Positions 2,952 through 42,817 of a DNA stretch of 42,973 nucleotides are shown here, piece after piece (position 1 is the stretch's first letter; each line of letters starts with the position of its first letter). The notes beneath the pieces are model-generated. The model was given only the letters and a program-made list of their open reading frames with translations, was not told the origin of the DNA and searched no databases. The position numbers were made by a program, and so were the translations under genes. The DNA is from a virus: positions 1 through 42,973 of the IMG/VR virus record IMGVR_UViG_3300047319_000521; one strand, 5' to 3'.

Positions 2952-3137
2952 ATGACGGTGCGCGAGGTGCTAAAGCGATTGGTTGCCGATGGGTGGATCG
3001 AACTCAAGGCCAAAGGCGGCAGCCATCGGCAATTCGTGCATCCGACGAAACCCGGCAAGGTCACGGTCCCAGACCACGGCGGCGACCTGAAGCCGGGGAC
3101 GCTCCACAGTATCTGGAAACAGGCAGGACTGAAATGA
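2952..3137 (+). CDS. hicA: HicA-family mRNA interferase toxin
   Basis: This 61-aa protein has the typical HicA layout: an N-terminal helix (MTVREVLKRLVADGW), then KAKGGSHRQFVHP with the catalytic His at residue 25, then VTVPDHGGDLKPGTLHSIWKQAGL. HicA toxins have a double-stranded-RNA-binding fold and cut mRNA during translation. The ATG at 2952 is preferred over an in-frame TTG at 2931 because it matches the family start. It opens a three-gene plus-strand operon inserted against the late operon. HicA is usually paired with HicB, but no HicB is present here; the nearest antitoxin-like gene is of the BrnA/CopG type two genes downstream. Confidence 0.88.
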   Translation: MTVREVLKRLVADGWIELKAKGGSHRQFVHPTKPGKVTVPDHGGDLKPGTLHSIWKQAGLK

Positions 3138-3382
3138 GGGCCAGGATGGTAAACGAACCGGAGACACTCGACGCCCTGCGCCGTCGTATCGAAGACCTCG
3201 AGCGCGTGTGCGCGGAAGCCTACCAGTTGGCGGGCGTGGTCGGCGCACCGGTCTGCGTGCTCGATAATCTCGCGGCGGCCGCGGACGGGCTCCCCATTCC
3301 ACATGCGTCCTTTCTCCCTATCACCGCCGACGACTGCGAGGCCGTGCGCGAACGGCCGGTGAACCTCCGCGATGCCCGCTAA
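3134..3382 (+). CDS. Small protein between toxin and antitoxin genes, unknown function
   Basis: This 82-aa frame starts at an ATG overlapping the hicA stop (ATGA), implying translational coupling. An alternative in-frame ATG lies 12 nt further on. Residues 9-30 (TLDALRRRIEDLERVCAEAYQL) form a short amphipathic, coiled-coil-like helix; the rest (VCVLDNLAAAADGLPIPHASFLPI) resembles small phage proteins with no known role. It overlaps the next gene by 11 nt. Its place inside a toxin-antitoxin operon suggests a third component or a passenger. I do not recognise the family. Confidence 0.6.
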   Translation: MRARMVNEPETLDALRRRIEDLERVCAEAYQLAGVVGAPVCVLDNLAAAADGLPIPHASFLPITADDCEAVRERPVNLRDAR

Positions 3383-3620
3383 GAAGAAAGCGGCCACCGC
3401 GATCACGGCGAAGGCGTTCGACCGGAAGTTTGACGCGGGCGAGGACGTCAAGGAGTACCTCGACCTGAGCAAGGCCCGCCGCCCTGGCCGCGAGGTCCAG
3501 CGCGTCAATGTCGATTTCACGGTGGACATGCTGCAGGCGATCGACGCCGAAGCCACCCGCCTCGGCGTGACGCGGCAGGCGTTCATCAAGATCCGGATGG
3601 CCGACGCGCTCCGGCGGTGA
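3372..3620 (+). CDS. BrnA/CopG-type ribbon-helix-helix antitoxin
   Basis: This 82-aa protein has the hallmarks of BrnA-like antitoxins: AFDRKFDAGEDVKEYLDLSKARRPG, then a ribbon strand (QRVNVDFTVDML), then a helical segment AEATRLGVTRQAFIKIRMADAL. Such proteins dimerise through the ribbon-helix-helix, bind their own operator and neutralise a BrnT toxin. No BrnT is present here; the toxin gene in the operon is hicA. It may protect against HicA in this hybrid arrangement, or be a solitary antitoxin protecting the lysogen against a host BrnT. It is the last gene of the plus-strand cargo operon. Confidence 0.82.
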   Translation: MPAKKKAATAITAKAFDRKFDAGEDVKEYLDLSKARRPGREVQRVNVDFTVDMLQAIDAEATRLGVTRQAFIKIRMADALRR

Positions 3621-3660
3621 GAGGGTTGAGACGCTTGATCTCTCTCAGCCGCCTCACACC
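3616..3660. terminator. Possible bidirectional terminator between convergent genes
   Basis: GGTGAGAGGGTTGAGA (3616-3631) can pair imperfectly with TCTCTCAGCCGCCTCACACC (3641-3660) across a 9-nt loop. It spans the stop codons of the converging antitoxin and HNH genes. No T-run is seen on either side, so an intrinsic terminator is only suggested by structure and position. Confidence 0.3.
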
Positions 3661-4250: not shown

Positions 4251-6710
4251 TTAGCCTCCACCCATCGGGACTGGTTCTTGCGCAGGCGGGGGAGGCTGGG
4301 CTCCTTGCTCAAGGGCCTGGACGTGTTCTTGAGCGCCGAGCGCGGCCTCATGCGCTCGATCGCGGGCGGCCTGATCAGCTTCGTGTGCTTGCACGCCGAG
4401 CCTGTTCCGCTCGTCCATAAAGAGCTGCATTCGATCGACCTTGGCACCCAATTCAGCCACGGCAAGTTTGACCTCTCGGTCAGCCGCCGCGATCCGTTCT
4501 TTGGAGTCAAGCTCCATCTGTGTTCTTTGAATTTCTGTACGATACTTCGCGTTGTCGCTCTGGATTTCCTGCGAGGCGTGCTGCAGCAGTTTTTCGGCGT
4601 CCTGCAGGCGCTGCTGCAGCTGCTGCATCTGCGCCGCGATCGGCGGCGGAATCGCGCCCTGGCCTTGCGCCTGCTGCGTCAGCATCTGCTGGATCGGTGG
4701 CGCCAGCATCACCTTCGCGCGCTCAGCCATCTCGAGGTGCCCAGGCCCGTCTTGGTTTTTCAAGAACAAGTCGCCGAACCAGGTAATGAGCTGCGGGTTC
4801 GCCTGAATCAGGTCGGCCATCATCGAGGCCTCTTCCTGCCGGCGAGAATCGAAGGCCTTGGTCACGCGGACGACGACGTTGAAGGTCGCGTCCGGCGTCA
4901 GCGTGTAGACGGGCGGCGTCGGGGGCGGCGCCGGCGGCCGCATCATGCCTGGCGGCATCCCCGGCGGCATCATCCCTGGAGGCGGTGCGCCCATTGGTCC
5001 CGGCGGCGGTCCCCCTGGTCCCATCGGCGTGGGGGCGCCAGCGGGAGGCGGCCCAGGCAGACCTGGCATCGGCGGGCCGCCAGGCGCACCACCCATCGGC
5101 GGCGGCATCATCCCTGGCATGGTGCTCGTCGCGCCTTGACCCATTCCCGGCGGCATGAACGTCGGCGTCGGCCGCTGCCCGATCTGCACGGTCTCAGGCT
5201 CGCCTTGGCCGTTGATGATCCGTGCGAGCCTGCCTGGCCGCTTGCCATAAATCGGATAGAGCAGATTATTCACGATCTGCCCTTCGTATCGCATGCTGCG
5301 CCGGAGGTTATTCAAGAAGTGGCTGGTGCCGTGCTGCGACTGCGCGATGAGCACCTGCGCCATTTTGCCGCTGCGAATGCTTGAATCCTGCCGGCCGATG
5401 TTCGCGTCGGGCACGCCGGTCGTGCTCTTGATCGCCTGGTCAAACATCTGCACGCTAAGGGCGAGGTCGTTGATCGGCGTATCGACCGGCGTCCGGAACG
5501 GCGGCGGCGCCGGATTGCCCATGAGGTCCGTGGTCTTATACGGCAAGGCCGGCAGCGTCCGCGTCGTCGCCGCCTGATACCACGCGCGATAGACTTCCCA
5601 CGTCCCCTCGGCCACCATCCACGGCGGAATCGGCGTCAGGCCGACCGTCTCCACCAGTTTGCTGACCATCGAGTTGTAACCCTGGTTACTATCGCGCGCC
5701 GGCCGCACCATGCCTTCGGCGCGCCGCTCCTGATCGTAGGGGTGGAGCTCCTCGCCGAGGACTTTGACGATCGGAATATCCGGCCCGCCCCAGTCGGTCT
5801 CATCGAGCTTCTGCACGCCGTCGATCTTCGCCCACTGAATGTGCTTCTCGACCACGCGCCGCGTCTCGATCGGGTCCGGTGCGTCGTCGGGGAGCTCGTC
5901 CTGCCACGCGAGCGTGTCATCCGGCATCGTGCAGAGGGTCCGCGTCTCCCGCTCGGTATACCAGTAGTCAACCACCCGCACGCTCTTCGTGAGCTCGTTC
6001 GTATCCGAGAACCACCCGGGCGCCTCGTCGCCGAGCGCCCGCCACTCCATGTCGGAGGCCGCCGCGGCCCGTGCGACGCGGTTCTTCCCAAACTCCGCTT
6101 CGTATTGCGCGATCGGCATGTCGATGCCGACGAATCCCCACTCCGCATCACTCCCGTCGGGTTGTTCATGCGCCGGGTCGAGGCTGACGCTGGCCTGGTT
6201 GTAATAGCGGTGAATGTAGACCTCTTGGTCGCGCGATTTTCCCGGCAGATAGCGCGTCATCACGCCGTAATAGCCGCGGCCGGCAATCGCCGCGCGTGAC
6301 GCGGCCCAGAGACGCGCATCGGTCGCCTCCGGCGCGCGTTGAATGCCGCGGACCAGGCCTTCGCGCACATCAATCTCGCGGTCGCGGTCGGCATTCGGCG
6401 TCGCGAGCGGCCCGAAGTCGTCGGCGGCGGCAATCGTGATCGTAAATTCGGCGCCCTCTTCCTGGTTGAGGACTTGTCGGACGGGTTCGCGGACCTTGTT
6501 GATCGTCAGTGTCGGCCGTTCCGGCGTCGGCGGCAGATTGCCGAGCGCCTGCTGCCCTTGGCGCTGCATCTTGGCTTCAGCAGACCACTGGTCACCACTA
6601 TAAAATTTTATGTCGTCCAATTCCCGCTTGCGCTGTTCCTGATCGGCCTGTTCAGCCTGGTGAAATCTATCGCGCGCCAATTTAATGAAGTCGTCTTCTG
6701 TTTTACTCAT
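4251..6710 (-). CDS. Portal protein, P22-like
   Basis: This 819-aa protein forms the dodecameric ring through which DNA is packaged and ejected. The start region (TEDDFIKLARDRF...IKFYSGDQWS), RPTLTINKVREPVRQVLNQE, and the SSIRSGKMAQVLIAQSQHGTSHFLNNLRRSM region followed by a long C-terminal helix are typical of P22-type portals, which at over 700 residues are larger than most. I chose ATG 6710 because it overlaps the upstream stop (ATGA); ATG 6719 is also in frame. Residues about 514-600 are a Pro/Gly/Met-rich, collagen-like insert. Residues about 690-790 are a long coiled coil, comparable to the P22 portal barrel, and the end is Pro-rich. TerL lies a few genes upstream, the P22 order. Confidence 0.92.
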   Translation of the reverse strand: MSKTEDDFIKLARDRFHQAEQADQEQRKRELDDIKFYSGDQWSAEAKMQRQGQQALGNLPPTPERPTLTINKVREPVRQVLNQEEGAEFTITIAAADDFGPLATPNADRDREIDVREGLVRGIQRAPEATDARLWAASRAAIAGRGYYGVMTRYLPGKSRDQEVYIHRYYNQASVSLDPAHEQPDGSDAEWGFVGIDMPIAQYEAEFGKNRVARAAAASDMEWRALGDEAPGWFSDTNELTKSVRVVDYWYTERETRTLCTMPDDTLAWQDELPDDAPDPIETRRVVEKHIQWAKIDGVQKLDETDWGGPDIPIVKVLGEELHPYDQERRAEGMVRPARDSNQGYNSMVSKLVETVGLTPIPPWMVAEGTWEVYRAWYQAATTRTLPALPYKTTDLMGNPAPPPFRTPVDTPINDLALSVQMFDQAIKSTTGVPDANIGRQDSSIRSGKMAQVLIAQSQHGTSHFLNNLRRSMRYEGQIVNNLLYPIYGKRPGRLARIINGQGEPETVQIGQRPTPTFMPPGMGQGATSTMPGMMPPPMGGAPGGPPMPGLPGPPPAGAPTPMGPGGPPPGPMGAPPPGMMPPGMPPGMMRPPAPPPTPPVYTLTPDATFNVVVRVTKAFDSRRQEEASMMADLIQANPQLITWFGDLFLKNQDGPGHLEMAERAKVMLAPPIQQMLTQQAQGQGAIPPPIAAQMQQLQQRLQDAEKLLQHASQEIQSDNAKYRTEIQRTQMELDSKERIAAADREVKLAVAELGAKVDRMQLFMDERNRLGVQAHEADQAARDRAHEAALGAQEHVQALEQGAQPPPPAQEPVPMGGG

Positions 6711-17711: not shown

Positions 17712-19295
17712 TTACTGATCAAATTCTTCTGAGGCGTAGAGCCCATCGAGCACATCGGGATACACCAGCCGCGCGAGTTTCGTCAGCGCCCGCGCGACGC
17801 ACATATCGCTCGGATGCCGGCCCCACGCACTCGTCGCAAACTTCGCCGGCTCTTTCGACCACGCTTGTTTTGCTTCCTCGATGGTGAAGGTCAGCACCGT
17901 GTCCTCGGGATCGCCCTCCCGGCGCGTCACGAACGTCGCGTGGTCGGGCGTGCGTGCGATGCAGCGGAAATATTGCGCCTTGCCAGATTTCAAGATGAGC
18001 GCATGAATGGCGCCGGCCGACAGTGTTGGCTTGCCCTCAATAATGTGGAAGGCCCGCAGCGCCGCCATCGCCTGGAAGCCGAGCTCGCGGCCGGCGAGCA
18101 CGGTGGCGAGCACCGCTTGCGGCGTGCCGTAGGCCGAGAAGAGCCGCGATTGATGCATCCAGTTCGCGAGTTCCTTCGCCTGGACGATGTCCTGCGGCTC
18201 GAGCTGCCGCTCGAACGCTAGCCCCGCACTGTCTTGTCGCACCATCGCGCGAGGTGGGTCTGGATGATCACCATTTGCCGCTGGTGGAGTTCGAGGAGAC
18301 TGCACACCAAGAGCAGGAGCACCTCCTCCCGCGTCAGCAGGCCCGTCTCCGCGACCAGCACCGCGCTCTGCGCCATCGGCTCCGTCGCCGCCAGCGCCTT
18401 CAGGTCGTCCCACGTCTTCATGCGTCTCCTCCGGCATCAGCGTCTCCATGGCAAACGCGATATCGTCGTCGGCGCCGAACGCCGCGGCATCCGCCGGCAC
18501 GCGCGTCTGGAAAATCTCCGCAAATGGAATCGGCGCATCGGTGCGCAACGTGATCAACGACCGCGCCACCTCGAACCGGGAGGGCTCGCCGGAGAAAAAG
18601 TCAATCAGCGATTTGCCGATCGCCGGCGTGAGCGACGCCTCACCGCATTCAATCGCCGCCCACAGGTCTTCAAGCGTGCCGTAACTCGTGAGCAACTTCG
18701 CCGCGGTCACGGCGCCAATCCGATCCGCGCCCTGGACGTTGTCGCTTTTGTCGCCGACGAGGGTTAAAAAATCGCAGAACTGAGTCGGGTGGACCCCGAA
18801 CTTTTCGACCACTGCCGCCGCGTCATAGGTGCGTTCGGTGGCGGTGCCGAGCGCCGGCCGAAAGACGTGCACGCGGTCGCAGACGAGCTGTAGTAAATCT
18901 TTGTCGGCCGAGATGATCAGCACGTCGGCGCCGTCGCTGTCGGGCGGCTGCGCGGCGGCGACCGCCGTCGCGATCAAGTCGTCCGCTTCAAAACCGCGCG
19001 CCGCCCAGATCGGAAACCCGTCACCGCGCAGGATGTCGATCGCGACGTTGCCCTGGTGATACAAGGCCGCATCGCGTTCGGCGGGTCGGTTCGCTTTGTA
19101 GTCCGTGCTGATCTCCGCGCGAAACGATTTGCCGCTATCACAACAAATCGCGACATGCGGATGGGCGCTCGCGAGCGCGCGAATTTTCGCGACGACCTGC
19201 GTGCTCGTGGCATTCGGGTCGGAGTCCGTGCTCGCGAGCGCCCACGTCGGATGCAGGATCGAACTGAAATCAAGCAACACCAAGCGATCACTCAT
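17712..19295 (-). CDS. 5'-3' exonuclease fused to RecT-like annealing domain
   Basis: One stop-free frame of 527 codons joins two recombination domains. Residues 1-290 are a PIN/FLAP-type 5'-3' exonuclease like the Pol I N-domain or T5 D15: Asp9, Asp53 (CCDSGKSFR), GFEADDLIAT (101-110), IISADKDLLQL (127-137) and LVGDKSDNVQGADRIG (179-194). Residues about 290-360 are a Gly/Ala/Asp linker that is the shadow of a nested gene. Residues about 365-527 (ELANWMHQSRLFSAYGTPQAVLATVLAGRELGF...GKPTLSAGAIHALI) resemble RecT-family annealases. An internal ATG at 18248 could also give a separate 178-aa RecT-like protein. Exonuclease plus annealase is the classic phage recombination pair, normally two proteins. 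Confidence 0.82.
   Translation of the reverse strand: MSDRLVLLDFSSILHPTWALASTDSDPNATSTQVVAKIRALASAHPHVAICCDSGKSFRAEISTDYKANRPAERDAALYHQGNVAIDILRGDGFPIWAARGFEADDLIATAVAAAQPPDSDGADVLIISADKDLLQLVCDRVHVFRPALGTATERTYDAAAVVEKFGVHPTQFCDFLTLVGDKSDNVQGADRIGAVTAAKLLTSYGTLEDLWAAIECGEASLTPAIGKSLIDFFSGEPSRFEVARSLITLRTDAPIPFAEIFQTRVPADAAAFGADDDIAFAMETLMPEETHEDVGRPEGAGGDGADGAERGAGRGDGPADAGGGAPALGVQSPRTPPAANGDHPDPPRAMVRQDSAGLAFERQLEPQDIVQAKELANWMHQSRLFSAYGTPQAVLATVLAGRELGFQAMAALRAFHIIEGKPTLSAGAIHALILKSGKAQYFRCIARTPDHATFVTRREGDPEDTVLTFTIEEAKQAWSKEPAKFATSAWGRHPSDMCVARALTKLARLVYPDVLDGLYASEEFDQ
18218..18421 (-). CDS. 67-aa protein nested in the exonuclease/RecT-like frame
   Basis: It starts at ATG 18421 behind a very good GGAGGAG ribosome site and lies wholly inside the linker region of the fusion gene, in another frame. 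The product MKTWDDLKALAATEPMAQSAVLVAETGLLTREEVLLLLVCSLLELHQRQMVIIQTHL is helical and looks like a normal protein, while the fusion frame here is low-complexity. The overlap suggests the small gene came first and that loss of a stop joined exonuclease and annealase. The function is unknown. Confidence 0.65.
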   Translation of the reverse strand: MKTWDDLKALAATEPMAQSAVLVAETGLLTREEVLLLLVCSLLELHQRQMVIIQTHLARWCDKTVRG

Positions 19296-19310: not shown

Positions 19311-19754
19311 AGCCACACCTTGCCGTGCCCTTCCATAGCGAGCCTTACCTCGCCTCGCCATGCCGCGCCCAACCCCGCCTCACCTACTCCATGCCCTACC
19401 AGTCCCGAGCCATCCCCGCCACATCCAGCCTTGCCGTGCCGAGCCATACCCAACCTCACCCGACCAGACCGCGCCGCCGCCACACCGGGCCACACCCGAC
19501 CACGCCCAACAACTCCACATCCGGCCTTACCCCGCCTGACCAAAACTCACCACGCCACGCCGCGCCAGACCGCGCCCAACCGGACCGCACCCGACATCGG
19601 CCCGCCTCGCCATTCCAGGGCACGCCATGCCAAAGCTCGCCAAGGCCGTGCCACGCCTGACCACTCAGCGCCCGTCCAGACCTCGCCCCACCCTCACCCC
19701 GCCCTGCCCCGCCGCACCTAGCCGAACCACGGCTAACCTTGCCGAACCAGACCT
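19311..19754. repeat. 5-bp-periodic RCCNN array, left (about 88 units)
   Basis: This gene-free stretch is built from RCCNN pentamers on the plus strand (for example ACCTC GCCTC GCCAT GCCGC), i.e. NNGGY on the minus strand, with occasional one-base slips. A period of 5 is incompatible with codon structure, so the long frames crossing it are by-products. On the lytic (minus) strand it gives GG every 5 nt. It lies between the exonuclease/RecT-like gene and the 215-aa gene, whose other side has a second array. Confidence 0.85.
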
Positions 19755-19759
19755 GATGA

Positions 19760-20407
19760 CTAATCCGGCACGACGATCTCGAACTGTTGAATCGCGAACC
19801 GTCCGTATGTCGGCCTGAAATCCGCCAGCCCGATCAACCGCCCCGCATTCACAAGCACATCCTGCAAGGCATCGGGTGGGATGTATTCCGGCAGATTCAC
19901 CATCAACTGAATTTCCACGGACCATCCCGTGCGCATCGCGGGCCGGACGCGCGTCACACCGTTGCGCTGAATCATCACGCGCCGCCGATCTTCGTAATCC
20001 CAATCGCGGGCACCGAGCGAGGCCAGCGGCGTCAGGCACACAACGCCCGCCTTAAAGAGATCCATCGCGCTCTTCCTGGGTGACCGCGGATCCTGACGAA
20101 ACTTCGCGGCATGGATCACCGCCTGCCGCAGATACTCACCAGGAAGCGCCAATTCGCCGGCGTCGTCGCGATAGACGTAACTCTCGAGGTCATCGGACTT
20201 CTTCGCCTTCGATCCCTTCGCGGCCCGCGCCTTCGTCGCAACGCCTTCAACATTCCAGCGATGGAAGAGGAGATCAGCGACGCCGACGATGCGCGCGGAC
20301 GCCACATACGGGAGCGCATATTCGATGGCCGCCTTCCCGCCGTTCGTCGTCATCGGACCAATCGCAATCACTTCGCTTCGTGCTACGCTGCTCGCAGTCG
20401 GTGTCAT
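19760..20407 (-). CDS. Conserved-type phage protein flanked by pentamer arrays, unknown function
   Basis: This 215-aa protein has an AGGAGAG ribosome site before its ATG. It resembles unannotated proteins of many phages: ARIVGVADLLFHRWNVEGV, ESYVYRDDAGELALPGEYLRQAVIHAAKF, RSPRKSAMDLFKAGVV, WDYEDRRRVMIQRNGVTRVRP, and a C-terminal GRLIGLADFRPTYGRFAI. The arrangement of strands with a G-x-x-x-FRPTYGRF end is suggestive of a nucleic-acid-binding fold, but that is inference. It lies next to the recombination fusion gene, and pentamer arrays fill the gaps on both sides. Confidence 0.8.
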   Translation of the reverse strand: MTPTASSVARSEVIAIGPMTTNGGKAAIEYALPYVASARIVGVADLLFHRWNVEGVATKARAAKGSKAKKSDDLESYVYRDDAGELALPGEYLRQAVIHAAKFRQDPRSPRKSAMDLFKAGVVCLTPLASLGARDWDYEDRRRVMIQRNGVTRVRPAMRTGWSVEIQLMVNLPEYIPPDALQDVLVNAGRLIGLADFRPTYGRFAIQQFEIVVPD

Positions 20408-20471
20408 GTGCTCTCCTCATGTGATGCTGTTGAGAGGGTCGCGTGCTGAGCGCGGCCCTTTCCCCAATCCA

Positions 20472-20660
20472 ACCTCGCCGAACCAAACCAAACCCGACCT
20501 GTCCTAGCCTTACCCGACCTCACCCTGCCATACCGTGCCGCGCCTCGCCCCACCGGACCCAAACCTCGCCCTACCACTACCACGCCATGCCTCGCATTGC
20601 CGCGCCATGCCCTCACCCGGCCAAACCCTGCCTCGCCCCGCCCGGCCTCGCCCCGCCGCT
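20472..20660. repeat. 5-bp-periodic RCCNN array, right (about 37 units)
   Basis: From 20472, 18 consecutive units stay in exact 5-bp phase (ACCTC GCCGA ACCAA ACCAA ...). After a one-base slip about 19 more follow. The unit is the same as in the left array: plus-strand RCCNN, minus-strand NNGGY. It fills most of the 278-bp gap upstream of the 215-aa gene; the remaining 64 bp hold that gene's ribosome site and nothing else obvious. Confidence 0.85.
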
Positions 20661-39129: not shown

Positions 39130-39761
39130 TACGTGACGACCACGCCGACCGCACCCGCCACGTTCCAGAGGCCGTTCTCAGCAATGAGCGTGAGCGTGGC
39201 GCCCTTGAACGCCGCGAATGTCGCGGTGGTATGCGGCGAGCCCGTCACGGCATCGCCCAGCAGCGTCGTCGCCGTCACGACATGCGCGAACGCCGTCTGC
39301 GAGGTGATCACCACGCGCGTGCCGTTCAACGAGAGCGAGGGCGCCGCCAGCGTCAGCGCTGCCGCGGAGCCTTTGTTGATGTTGTAGACGACCGGGCCGA
39401 GCGGCTGCGGAATCGCCCCATCGGCGCCGAGCGTCACTGGGTTGTCGATCGCGGGATCGATCAACACGATCTGCCCTGGCGCAATCTGGCCGAAGTCGTT
39501 CGGGTTGCTCGAGGTGATGACCGGCGCGAGCACATCGTGTGCGGCAGCCACGGTGCCTTCGCTGCCCCGGCAGCGCACGGTGATCGTGTTCGTCGCCGGC
39601 ACGCCGGTGAGAAACATCAGCTCGCCATCGATCTGGATCGCTTGCGGCGGCTGCGCGTTCTGCGTGCCGACGGTCGGAAAGCCGGTGCTGGTGCTGGTGA
39701 CGCCGAACGTGGTCACCGAGGCCGTGATGGCTGACGTGAGCGTGGTTTGTGTCAGGGCCAT
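39129..39761 (-). CDS. Capsid-associated structural protein, copy B (complete)
   Basis: This 210-aa protein has IDGELMFLTGVPATNTITVRCRGSEGTVAAAH in its first third, a motif frequent in phage accessory head proteins, and a C-terminal jelly-roll-like part (GTRVVITSQTAFAHVVTATTLLGDAV...TATFAAFKGATLTLIAENGLW). It may be a decoration or head-stabilising protein. Its first 59 codons match copy A at 1-179 closely. Here an endonuclease gene lies between it and the coat gene, and it has its own AGGA ribosome site. Confidence 0.75.
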   Translation of the reverse strand: MALTQTTLTSAITASVTTFGVTSTSTGFPTVGTQNAQPPQAIQIDGELMFLTGVPATNTITVRCRGSEGTVAAAHDVLAPVITSSNPNDFGQIAPGQIVLIDPAIDNPVTLGADGAIPQPLGPVVYNINKGSAAALTLAAPSLSLNGTRVVITSQTAFAHVVTATTLLGDAVTGSPHTTATFAAFKGATLTLIAENGLWNVAGAVGVVVT

Positions 39762-39789
39762 GTTTTACGTCCTATGGTAAAATATTGTC

Positions 39790-40497
39790 ATGCCGCCATT
39801 ACGCGACCTGACGGGGTTGATCGTGGGACAACTGACCGTGCTGCACCGTGCGCCGAATCTCGGTCAGCGTGCGGCGTGGGCGTGTGCCTGCGCCTGTGGC
39901 ACTCAGATCGCCGTGCGTGCGGAATCGTTGTTGACCGCCAACACACGCTCGTGCGGCTGTTGGAAGCGATCGGAAGCGAAACGCCGCCGAGAGAAACCGA
40001 AGCCACAGCCTGGTGACCGCTTTGGACGACTGACCGTGCTGGCCTTCTTGGGCAAGCAGACGCGGTATCCTCGCGTGCGCTGCCAATGCGATTGCGGACA
40101 GATCACCGAGCCGCATTGGTATAACCTTAAAAGCGGCAACACGCGCTCGTGTGGCTGCTGGCACGAAGAGATCATCAGCGCTCGATTCACGACGCACGGA
40201 CGATCGAGAACACCCGAATACGTCGCCTGGAAACAGCTTAAAACGCGCTGTCTGCTCGCCACTGGTAAAGACTTTCCACTCTACGGCGGTCGTGGCATTC
40301 GTGTGTGCGACCGCTGGCGTTCGTCGTTCGCGAATTTCCTCGCCGACATGGGGCCACGGCCGACGCCGGGGCATTCCATGGACCGCATCGACCCAGAGGG
40401 GCATTACGAACCGACCAATTGTCGATGGGCGACACCCCGCGAACAACGCCTGAACCAGCGGCGGATGCATCACGACACTAAACGCAACGCGAAGTAG
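39790..40497 (+). CDS. AP2/HNH-type homing endonuclease-like protein
   Basis: This 235-aa protein has two copies of an AP2-like zinc-ribbon unit: GQLTVL...CACACG...TRSCGCW and GRLTVL...CQCDCG...TRSCGCWHEE. A C-terminal HNH-like region follows: YGGRGIRVCDRW, FLADMGPRP, SMDRIDPEGHYEPTNCRWATPREQRLNQR. Such genes are common free-standing selfish elements in phages. It sits opposite in strand to the late genes, its end overlapping the coat 3' end by 28 nt, exactly where copy A has no insert. A TAAAAT just before the ATG could serve as its -10. Confidence 0.83.
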   Translation: MPPLRDLTGLIVGQLTVLHRAPNLGQRAAWACACACGTQIAVRAESLLTANTRSCGCWKRSEAKRRREKPKPQPGDRFGRLTVLAFLGKQTRYPRVRCQCDCGQITEPHWYNLKSGNTRSCGCWHEEIISARFTTHGRSRTPEYVAWKQLKTRCLLATGKDFPLYGGRGIRVCDRWRSSFANFLADMGPRPTPGHSMDRIDPEGHYEPTNCRWATPREQRLNQRRMHHDTKRNAK

Positions 40498-41696
40498 GGC
40501 AACACGGCGGCCACTCCCCCGATGCTGTCTATTCTGCTTGGTTGCTGATCAGTCTGGATGTTGTACTGCTCAACGAAACGGAGCGAGATCCCCGTTTCCT
40601 TATCGTTCTTGCGCGCCGCATTCGCGCCCGGCAGTTTCGCGGGGAGATCGACCATCACAAAAGCGAACGCGGCAGGGTTAAAGAGGAGCGACTGCTTGCT
40701 GCTCTGCGCCGACATCGTGCCGGCGACCGCGCCCGTGGCGCCGACCACTAAGATGCTCGCGTTGTTCGCGGGCGAGGCCGTCACGGTCTGCAGCGCGCCG
40801 CTCGTGATAATCGGCGGGCTGAACGTCAGCGTTGCGGTGCTCGTGCCAGCGACATCCGCCTGCAACACGAACTGTTGCAAGTCGCCGGTGTCGATGTAGG
40901 ACACCGGATTCACGGCATTGACGCCCGCGATCGTAAACACGTCGCCGGCCTTCAAGGCGTAGGTGCCCCAGCCGCTGGTGGTGACGGTCGACCCGGTCTG
41001 CCCTGCGCTGTTCACCAGCGGCGTGCTCGCGGTGAAGGTGCCGGTCGTGTGCGTCGGCACGTTCGGATCCCAATACCATTCGTCCACGCCCATCGCCGCG
41101 CCCGAGAACTGGCCGGTCTTCCAGTAGGTCGTGATCTGATTTTGGGGATTGAATTGCGTGAACGCGGTTTTCAGAATCGCGCTCTGCGATTTCGGGTCGA
41201 GCACCGCCACGAATTTATCGGGCACGCCGACGTTGCGGAGTTTCGCGACCGCATCGGTATACGTGCCTTCCGCTGACAGCGGGGTGCCGGGGGAGCCGGC
41301 CAAGTAATAGACCGACTTGTAGACTTCAGCGCCGGCGACGACATCCCATTTGTTCGCCTGTGCGGCGCCGGCGGGCTTCGTGTAGCGGTCCTGCACTTCC
41401 TCAACGAGGAGTCGGTCATCCGCAGAGGACCACCCCATCCCCACCTGCATTTGATGGTTAATCGTGATCGGGACGGTCTGATTGAAAATCGCCTGCTGCA
41501 CGAGCGCCTGGCCTTCAGTGACGACGAAGCGCTGTTGAATGCGCGCCTGCACCGTGTAGCCGATCTTCGCGCCGCCGGGATCGTTCTCCCAGGTGCGATC
41601 CCACGAGCGATCGAACTGGCCGATTAGTTTGAGGTTGTTCTTAAAGTTGACGGCGACGTCGGTTGTGACCCAGGACGGCGAAATGAAAGTATTCAA
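40470..41696 (-). CDS. Major capsid (coat) protein, P22 gp5-like, copy B
   Basis: The same 408-aa coat as at 207-1433, with about 19 differences by my count and the same TTG start, here behind an AGGGG site 6 nt upstream. Changes are scattered and mostly conservative (for example near residues 79, 83 and 322), as between strains under purifying selection. The last codons (LVS rather than LWS) overlap the end of the inserted endonuclease gene. The reading frame is intact, so both copies look functional. Confidence 0.92.
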   Translation of the reverse strand: MNTFISPSWVTTDVAVNFKNNLKLIGQFDRSWDRTWENDPGGAKIGYTVQARIQQRFVVTEGQALVQQAIFNQTVPITINHQMQVGMGWSSADDRLLVEEVQDRYTKPAGAAQANKWDVVAGAEVYKSVYYLAGSPGTPLSAEGTYTDAVAKLRNVGVPDKFVAVLDPKSQSAILKTAFTQFNPQNQITTYWKTGQFSGAAMGVDEWYWDPNVPTHTTGTFTASTPLVNSAGQTGSTVTTSGWGTYALKAGDVFTIAGVNAVNPVSYIDTGDLQQFVLQADVAGTSTATLTFSPPIITSGALQTVTASPANNASILVVGATGAVAGTMSAQSSKQSLLFNPAAFAFVMVDLPAKLPGANAARKNDKETGISLRFVEQYNIQTDQQPSRIDSIGGVAAVLPYFALRLVS

Positions 41697-41722
41697 GGTC
41701 TGCCCCTGCGGCAGACGATCCG

Positions 41723-42697
41723 TTACGCGCGACGACGACCGTTGCGGTAGTAGAACTGTTCGTGCGCCGCAAGCGAGGCGTCATCACCCGGCGGTTCGTC
41801 ACCACCGCGCATCGGACCTGTCCGCACCGGATTAGGCGGGCGTGGGACCTGAGATGTCATCACGGGCGCAGTAGCCGATCCGGTGCCGGCAGCTACACTG
41901 CGCGTGGAGGGAGACGGCGCAGCGAGGTGCTGCGAAATGAGCGCGAGCGTTTCGAGTTGGTCGAGCGGCGACTGCGCGAGCACGCGCGGGAGCTCGCCGG
42001 GATTCTTTTGAAAGTAGTAGAGCACGTCGGCGCCGGTGCGGTGTTCCCAGACCCAGCGGTCGATCAGCGAGCCCTGCGGAATCGCGGAGGGCGCATTGAG
42101 CGCAACCTCGTTGAAATCCGGATAGCGGGCCTGCGCGCCGGCCACTTTCTCTTGGAAGGTCTGCGCGAACTGCCGCTGGGCCTGTTGCTGCTGCTGCTGC
42201 TCCTCGCGGCGCTGCCAGGTCCAGTTCGCCATCGCTTCCGCGTGCCGCTCGACGGCCAGGTTGTAGTCTTCGTCGGGCTTTAACTGGTCGATGAACCCTT
42301 GGAGCCGCGGCGCCTGCGTCGGCGCCGCAGCGCGCGGCTGGGCGGGCGCGGGCGCGGCGGCCGGTGGTGGGGCGGCCTTGCGCAGCGACTCGAGCTCCGC
42401 TTCACGCTCACGCAGCTTACGCGTCAGTTCGTTAATGCGGGGCGCATCGGCCGGCGTCGCGGCGTGGCTTTTCGCGCGCTTACCGGATTTGAAGCGGCCT
42501 TGTTCATCGCGCTCGCCCGCCGCCGGCTCCGCGTCGTCGGCGCTTGAGGTCGCGGACGGCTCTGGCGCGGCGGCGGCGGGCGTGTCGCGGTCAGTCTGCC
42601 CGTGGAACTGTTTTTCGTGGTCGCTCAGCGACAGTTCAGCCGGTTCGGCGGGCGGGCCGCCGGCATCGGGACTCGGAACGGGCAGATCGTCGGCCAC
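41723..42697 (-). CDS. Scaffolding protein, copy B
   Basis: This 324-aa counterpart of 1467-2438 has the same layout: acidic disordered start, a charged heptad stretch (RINELTRKLREREAELESLRKA), Pro/Ala linker, and Gln-rich helix. The C-terminal 60 or so residues are identical to copy A in protein and almost identical in DNA. The N-terminal and linker parts differ by substitutions and small indels. GTG start with CAGG upstream, as in copy A. Confidence 0.75.
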   Translation of the reverse strand: MADDLPVPSPDAGGPPAEPAELSLSDHEKQFHGQTDRDTPAAAAPEPSATSSADDAEPAAGERDEQGRFKSGKRAKSHAATPADAPRINELTRKLREREAELESLRKAAPPPAAAPAPAQPRAAAPTQAPRLQGFIDQLKPDEDYNLAVERHAEAMANWTWQRREEQQQQQQAQRQFAQTFQEKVAGAQARYPDFNEVALNAPSAIPQGSLIDRWVWEHRTGADVLYYFQKNPGELPRVLAQSPLDQLETLALISQHLAAPSPSTRSVAAGTGSATAPVMTSQVPRPPNPVRTGPMRGGDEPPGDDASLAAHEQFYYRNGRRRA

Positions 42698-42733
42698 GGA
42701 TGGCCTGTAGTCTGCGCCCGTGGGGCGGGCAGT

Positions 42734-42764
42734 GTCAAGAATTTGACGATGTCAAGACCTTGAC
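42734..42764. promoter_or_regulatory. Twin dyad operator upstream of scaffold, copy B
   Basis: GTCAA-GAAT-TTGAC (42734-42747) and GTCAA-GACC-TTGAC (42751-42764), same spacing as at 2475-2505. DNA on the far side of this element bears no likeness to copy A, so the dyad pair lies at the boundary of homology. Minus-strand TTGACA boxes face the scaffold gene. Confidence 0.55.
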
Positions 42765-42817
42765 GATCCGCCGGCTGCCAGGCCATCAGGGCGCCGGCCG
42801 CTATACTGGATGGACGT

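Follow-up and report, generated by a model that had tools for sequence, protein, structure and literature searches.

VIPR (Viral Interference Programmable Repeat) is a phage-encoded system described in April 2026 in a bioRxiv preprint (PMC13142463), the one preprint behind it in the literature searched. According to that preprint, vrRNAs, RNAs of 9–16 YNNGG repeats, flank Vipr, a small RAMP protein, and their NN pairs recognize DNA in the pattern NN-x-NN-x with one skipped base. In SUSP1, activity was lost when the NN pairs alone were changed and the GG was kept. Each vrRNA of the SUSP1 clade carries an invariable structured 3′ tail, and some VIPR types are stated to have "staggered arrays with overlapping vrRNAs." An accessory gene, vap, is typical of the system but not universal. 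VIPR has been proposed as the ancestor of CRISPR (PMC13142463).

The window, that is, the whole 42,973-base IMG/VR virus record analyzed here, harbors a locus that very probably (about 95%) belongs to this system: a phage-encoded VIPR composed of a Vipr protein and vrRNA arrays on the same strand, which would silence target genes. Thus, the statement of an earlier, sequence-only reading of this DNA that it knew of no described element of this kind has been overtaken by the preprint. Class 1 CRISPR systems are alike in that Cas7/Csm3 proteins have a RAMP fold with a G-rich loop and a role as backbone of the guide RNA. Unlike the window, however, they have a repeat-spacer array and other cas genes, and their pairing is continuous whereas that of the window is gapped. 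Indeed, no cas family was found among 30 ORFs scanned, and the sole repeat is the 5-nt scaffold.

The Locus and Its Five-Base Arrays

The principal features of the locus are as follows.

17712–19295, minus strand: exonuclease-RecT gene, a single reading frame that joins a FEN-like 5′-3′ exonuclease (N and C domains) to an annealing domain of the RecT type
19312–19755, minus strand: downstream (left) vrRNA array, 88 NNGGY units in phased runs of 12, 10, 33, 18, and 15
19760–20407, minus strand: vipr gene, 215 aa, RAMP family, with the conserved G-rich loop GxxDFRPTYGRF (phrog_4652)
20472–20659, minus strand: upstream (right) vrRNA array, 37 NNGGY units; such arrays flank vipr in relatives with different NN content

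The five-base repeat is confirmed. Against 1000 dinucleotide shuffles, the CC-to-CC count at lag 5 is 67 in the left array (shuffle mean 25.0, maximum 39) and 35 in the right array (mean 14.0, maximum 25), and the counts at lags 10 and 15 also exceed all 1000 shuffles in both arrays. The periodicity score is 25–52 within the arrays, against 20 for the best other region of the window. Positions 2 and 3 of the pentamer are C in 78/87 and 84/87 cases in the left array and in 38/38 and 37/38 in the right one, and a purine stands at position 1 in 79/87 and 36/38, respectively, while positions 4 and 5 are near-random in both. On the minus strand, the unit has a nearly invariant GG, a pyrimidine as the fifth base, and two N positions close to random. 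It corresponds to the repeat described for VIPR (YNNGG/GGY-NN; PMC13142463). The sequence-only reading had counted about 88 and 37 such units and excluded codon selection on the ground of the period of 5, and both points are borne out, as are the strand and the period that it gave. Its 18 right-array units in exact phase are found as a single-phase stretch of 18, one unit of which is imperfect.

The last upstream vrRNA may end in a structured tail.

20436–20458, minus strand: hairpin after the upstream array, GGGCCGCG...CGCGACCC, a candidate 3′ tail of the last upstream vrRNA

In nine relatives, 97% of the cells of this hairpin are paired, with one compensatory pair; covariation is weak and not significant against shuffles. 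Between the guides of the window arrays, no clear conserved tail was seen.

The 215-aa Protein

Sequence comparison and a predicted structure identify the 215-aa protein as a Vipr of RAMP type, related to Cas7 and Csm3 of CRISPR systems. A tblastn search led to Felixounavirus and Suspvirus proteins, with a match to SUSP1/SUSP2 at E about 2e-5. Alignment by hhalign to the SUSP2 protein (SUSP1 has an identical one) gave a probability of 98.4 and E 7e-15. The window and SUSP2 proteins are about 28% identical. The SUSP1 gene is accompanied by NNGGY tracts, one upstream and three downstream; since this is the published layout, the gene is the one studied in PMC13142463. When the window protein was modeled with AlphaFold (mean pLDDT 82.7), the best Foldseek matches of the model were Csm3/type VII Cas7-like chains (E 6e-7, probability 1.00). 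The G-loop motif GxxDxRPxxGRF is conserved, and the form GxxDFRPTYGRF is kept across the clade.

Relatives of the protein comprise 46 viral and 31 genome sequences. Relatives with short arrays occur in assemblies of Phycisphaerales and other Planctomycetota (L253–L265, L278), and one Stenomitos contig has two loci (L266, L267).

Arrays in Relatives and Variation at the Locus

NNGGY arrays lie on the gene strand in most of the 46 viral relatives and almost never on the opposite strand; in some of them, the array is weak or absent by the detector used, and some are truncated by contig ends. The proposed link between the arrays and the 215-aa gene thus survives the search for flanking arrays in homologues, most of which have them. 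No adjacent gene family is common to the clade, and a conserved vap beside vipr was not found.

The content of the locus varies between close relatives. For example, in one sister phage (L002) the protein is 99% identical, but the arrays differ in length and their NN content is entirely different. In another sister phage (L138/L213), whose terminase is 98% identical, a different, divergent Vipr occupies this position; after it come long arrays of its own and the exonuclease-RecT gene that the window also has.

L213:3599–4396 and L301:3565–4362: divergent Vipr-like protein at the same locus in the sister phage

The array of the sister phage is interrupted about every 11–14 units by a 4-nt unit (NGGY). 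Possibly, slips of the 5-nt register are all that marks the guides in this clade (the 4-nt NGGY units in the sister phage and the phase breaks in the window), without per-guide tails, and whole VIPR cassettes, vipr together with its arrays, are exchanged between nearly identical phages at one locus; this proposal is tentative and somewhat more likely to fail than to hold.

That arrays and gene travel together in relatives could also be expected if the arrays were phased double-stranded DNA sites bound by the 215-aa protein, such as an operator, a partition site, or a packaging site. This explanation is very improbable: the predicted fold of the protein is an RNA-binding RAMP fold, the NN content is hypervariable between near-identical phages and matches foreign genes, and the period is 5 against the helical 10–11. 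The suggestion that the 215-aa protein binds the repeats as a phased array nevertheless came close, except that, by analogy with VIPR, it is an RNA copy that would be bound as a guide, and not the DNA.

The exonuclease-RecT gene, correctly recognized as a fusion by the sequence-only reading, starts about 17 bp from the end of the downstream array, and the fusion is present in about ten related phages. It was considered as a VIPR accessory and ruled out: it adjoins vipr only in the nearest relatives and is therefore not a conserved part of VIPR. The short distance to its start codon is also the point in favor of another view of the arrays, as a degenerate microsatellite or a zone where recombination or replication begins. 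This is the least probable of the explanations weighed here, hardly worth entertaining, because the arrays follow vipr, only a few vipr genes have exonuclease-RecT beside them, and a microsatellite would neither hold GGY fixed with NN random nor match genes of rivals. The start zone suggested earlier is accordingly abandoned in favor of VIPR arrays.

Elsewhere in the record, the major head protein and scaffold genes occur at both ends (19–2531 and 39600–42787), with about 87% DNA identity between the copies (95% and 91% at the protein level). Either the genes are truly duplicated or the genome is permuted and two strain variants were combined in its assembly.

The One-Base Skip Rule

For the skip rule, 123 arrays were read as series of NN pairs. 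Each series was compared, at skips of 0–4 bases, with 3.72 Mb of DNA from related phages and hosts in which arrays had been masked. Matches scoring at least 19 numbered 0, 20, 0, 0, and 0 at skips 0, 1, 2, 3, and 4, and those scoring at least 18 numbered 2, 26, 1, 1, and 0, redundant contigs being counted in both series. When the order of units was shuffled (five shuffles), no match scored at least 20, against 23 with the real order in a set that also included loci fetched by pattern. The skipped base falls on codon position 3 of the longest ORF in 18 of the 25 distinct targets. Thus, the 1-nt skip rule holds in a clade without experimental work, with skips mostly at wobble positions. Among the targets decoded for guides of this clade are helicase motifs and, in other vipr genes, the GITRxRPALKAGW and G-loop regions; guides in the L019 array 3116–3623 and the L043 array 4599–5025, once decoded, correspond to conserved regions of vipr in rivals.

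These data bear on the G-quadruplex reading as well, in which the arrays would have no guide function and would act as nucleic-acid structures, for instance two-layer quadruplexes formed by the minus strand or by RNA copied from it. On paper, a GG every 5 nt can build such structures. They do not, however, explain the order of the NN pairs, because shuffling of the order abolishes the matches: a quadruplex does not predict a match of NN order to DNA of related phages at skip 1 only, nor does it predict skips at wobble positions or a RAMP protein between the arrays. Furthermore, the loss of SUSP1 activity on NN-only changes, as reported in the preprint (PMC13142463), speaks against it. There is thus very little chance that G-quadruplexes, which the sequence-only reading had put forward as one option, account for the arrays.

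Targets of the Window's Guides

Targets were identified for two of the perhaps nine or ten guides of the window.

19312–19376, minus strand: last guide of the downstream array, 13 units (GG TG GC AT GA GA AA TC AT AG AC AA GT); target, codons 4–16 of a rival exonuclease-RecT gene
20615–20659, minus strand: first guide of the upstream array, 9 units (GC GG GA CG GG GA AG TT CG); target in sister phages

The last downstream units gave partial matches to the starts of exonuclease genes in several related phages, with the decoded peptide TLVLIDFSSIAHP. Nine of these units were then used to scan all of IMG/VR, which returned two contigs and brought up TIVLIDFSSIAHP, in agreement at 25 of 26 bases. 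In the first contig (L291, IMGVR_UViG_3300046739_000338), these 25/26 bases extend over all 13 units with skips on wobble positions, and the match is antisense to codons 4–16 of MNKPTIVLIDFSSIAHPVW, the start of an exonuclease-RecT homologue in a rival 58-kb phage. The window's own exonuclease-RecT gene agrees with the last guide at only 18/26 bases. The array of the sister phage L138 closes with a 13-unit guide that is nearly identical and matches the same site. In the rival (G047), no Vipr was seen. The match in the second contig (L290) did not extend and was taken as chance.

The first guide, read with the 1-nt skip, matches L138/L213 in 9/9 units and 18/18 bases, although nine units are a short match and the target ORF is doubtful. 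Its target lies about 250 nt upstream of the divergent vipr of these sister phages. A scan of IMG/VR with the first eight units gave nine contigs, only two of which are the sister phages. The two guides thus point, respectively, to the beginning of exonuclease-RecT in a rival phage and to sister-phage DNA that lies upstream of vipr.

Two further target scans gave 5 matches for the last upstream guide and 24 for downstream units 33–40; none extended convincingly, and all were therefore taken as chance. Downstream units 32–41 agree with the exonuclease-RecT gene of the sister L002 at 18/20 bases, but a skip of 4 gave equal scores elsewhere, so that this gene is only suggested as a target by the sequence match.

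A Possible Mode of Action and Comparison with SUSP1

The arrays, homology, fold, skip rule, and two targets were computed here; transcription, RNA binding, and silencing at the window locus are proposed by analogy with SUSP1. The minus-strand gene would produce a small RAMP-type Vipr, and both same-strand arrays would produce NNGGY guide RNAs (vrRNAs). Vipr subunits would line up on the repeats and hold GGY as the scaffold, with each NN pair left available for pairing with DNA. The target would be read as NN-x-NN-x, with the skipped base at the wobble position in coding DNA, and the complex would then block transcription of the target, so that the gene is silenced. The two guides matched to targets have 9 and 13 units, against the 9–16 repeats described for a vrRNA.

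The window and the SUSP1 VIPR (PMC13142463) are alike in having a homologous Vipr, flanking gene-strand NNGGY repeats, and 1-nt skips at wobble positions, and in being phage-encoded and aimed at competing elements. They differ in architecture: SUSP1 has separate vrRNAs with a 3′ tail, and vap1, whereas the window has arrays of 88 and 37 units with no clear inter-guide tail and no evident vap. A long array architecture is shared with the staggered-array types, as judged from their description in the preprint. Because overlapping vrRNAs in staggered arrays are mentioned there, the window locus may be one of these types (PMC13142463). The window thus adds a further locus, with long, nearly tail-less arrays, to a system already described.

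Implications

The present analysis provides an independent check of the gapped code of VIPR in a clade without experimental work, including a target that was inferred from partial matches and later located by sequence search. The guides point at a recombination gene of a rival and at DNA upstream of a rival vipr, and near-identical phages differ at the same place in their guide sets, or in vipr itself. If guides are indeed marked by register slips and cassettes are exchanged, the clade would have a separate mode of guide processing, and the phages would possess an "immune locus" with rapid turnover.
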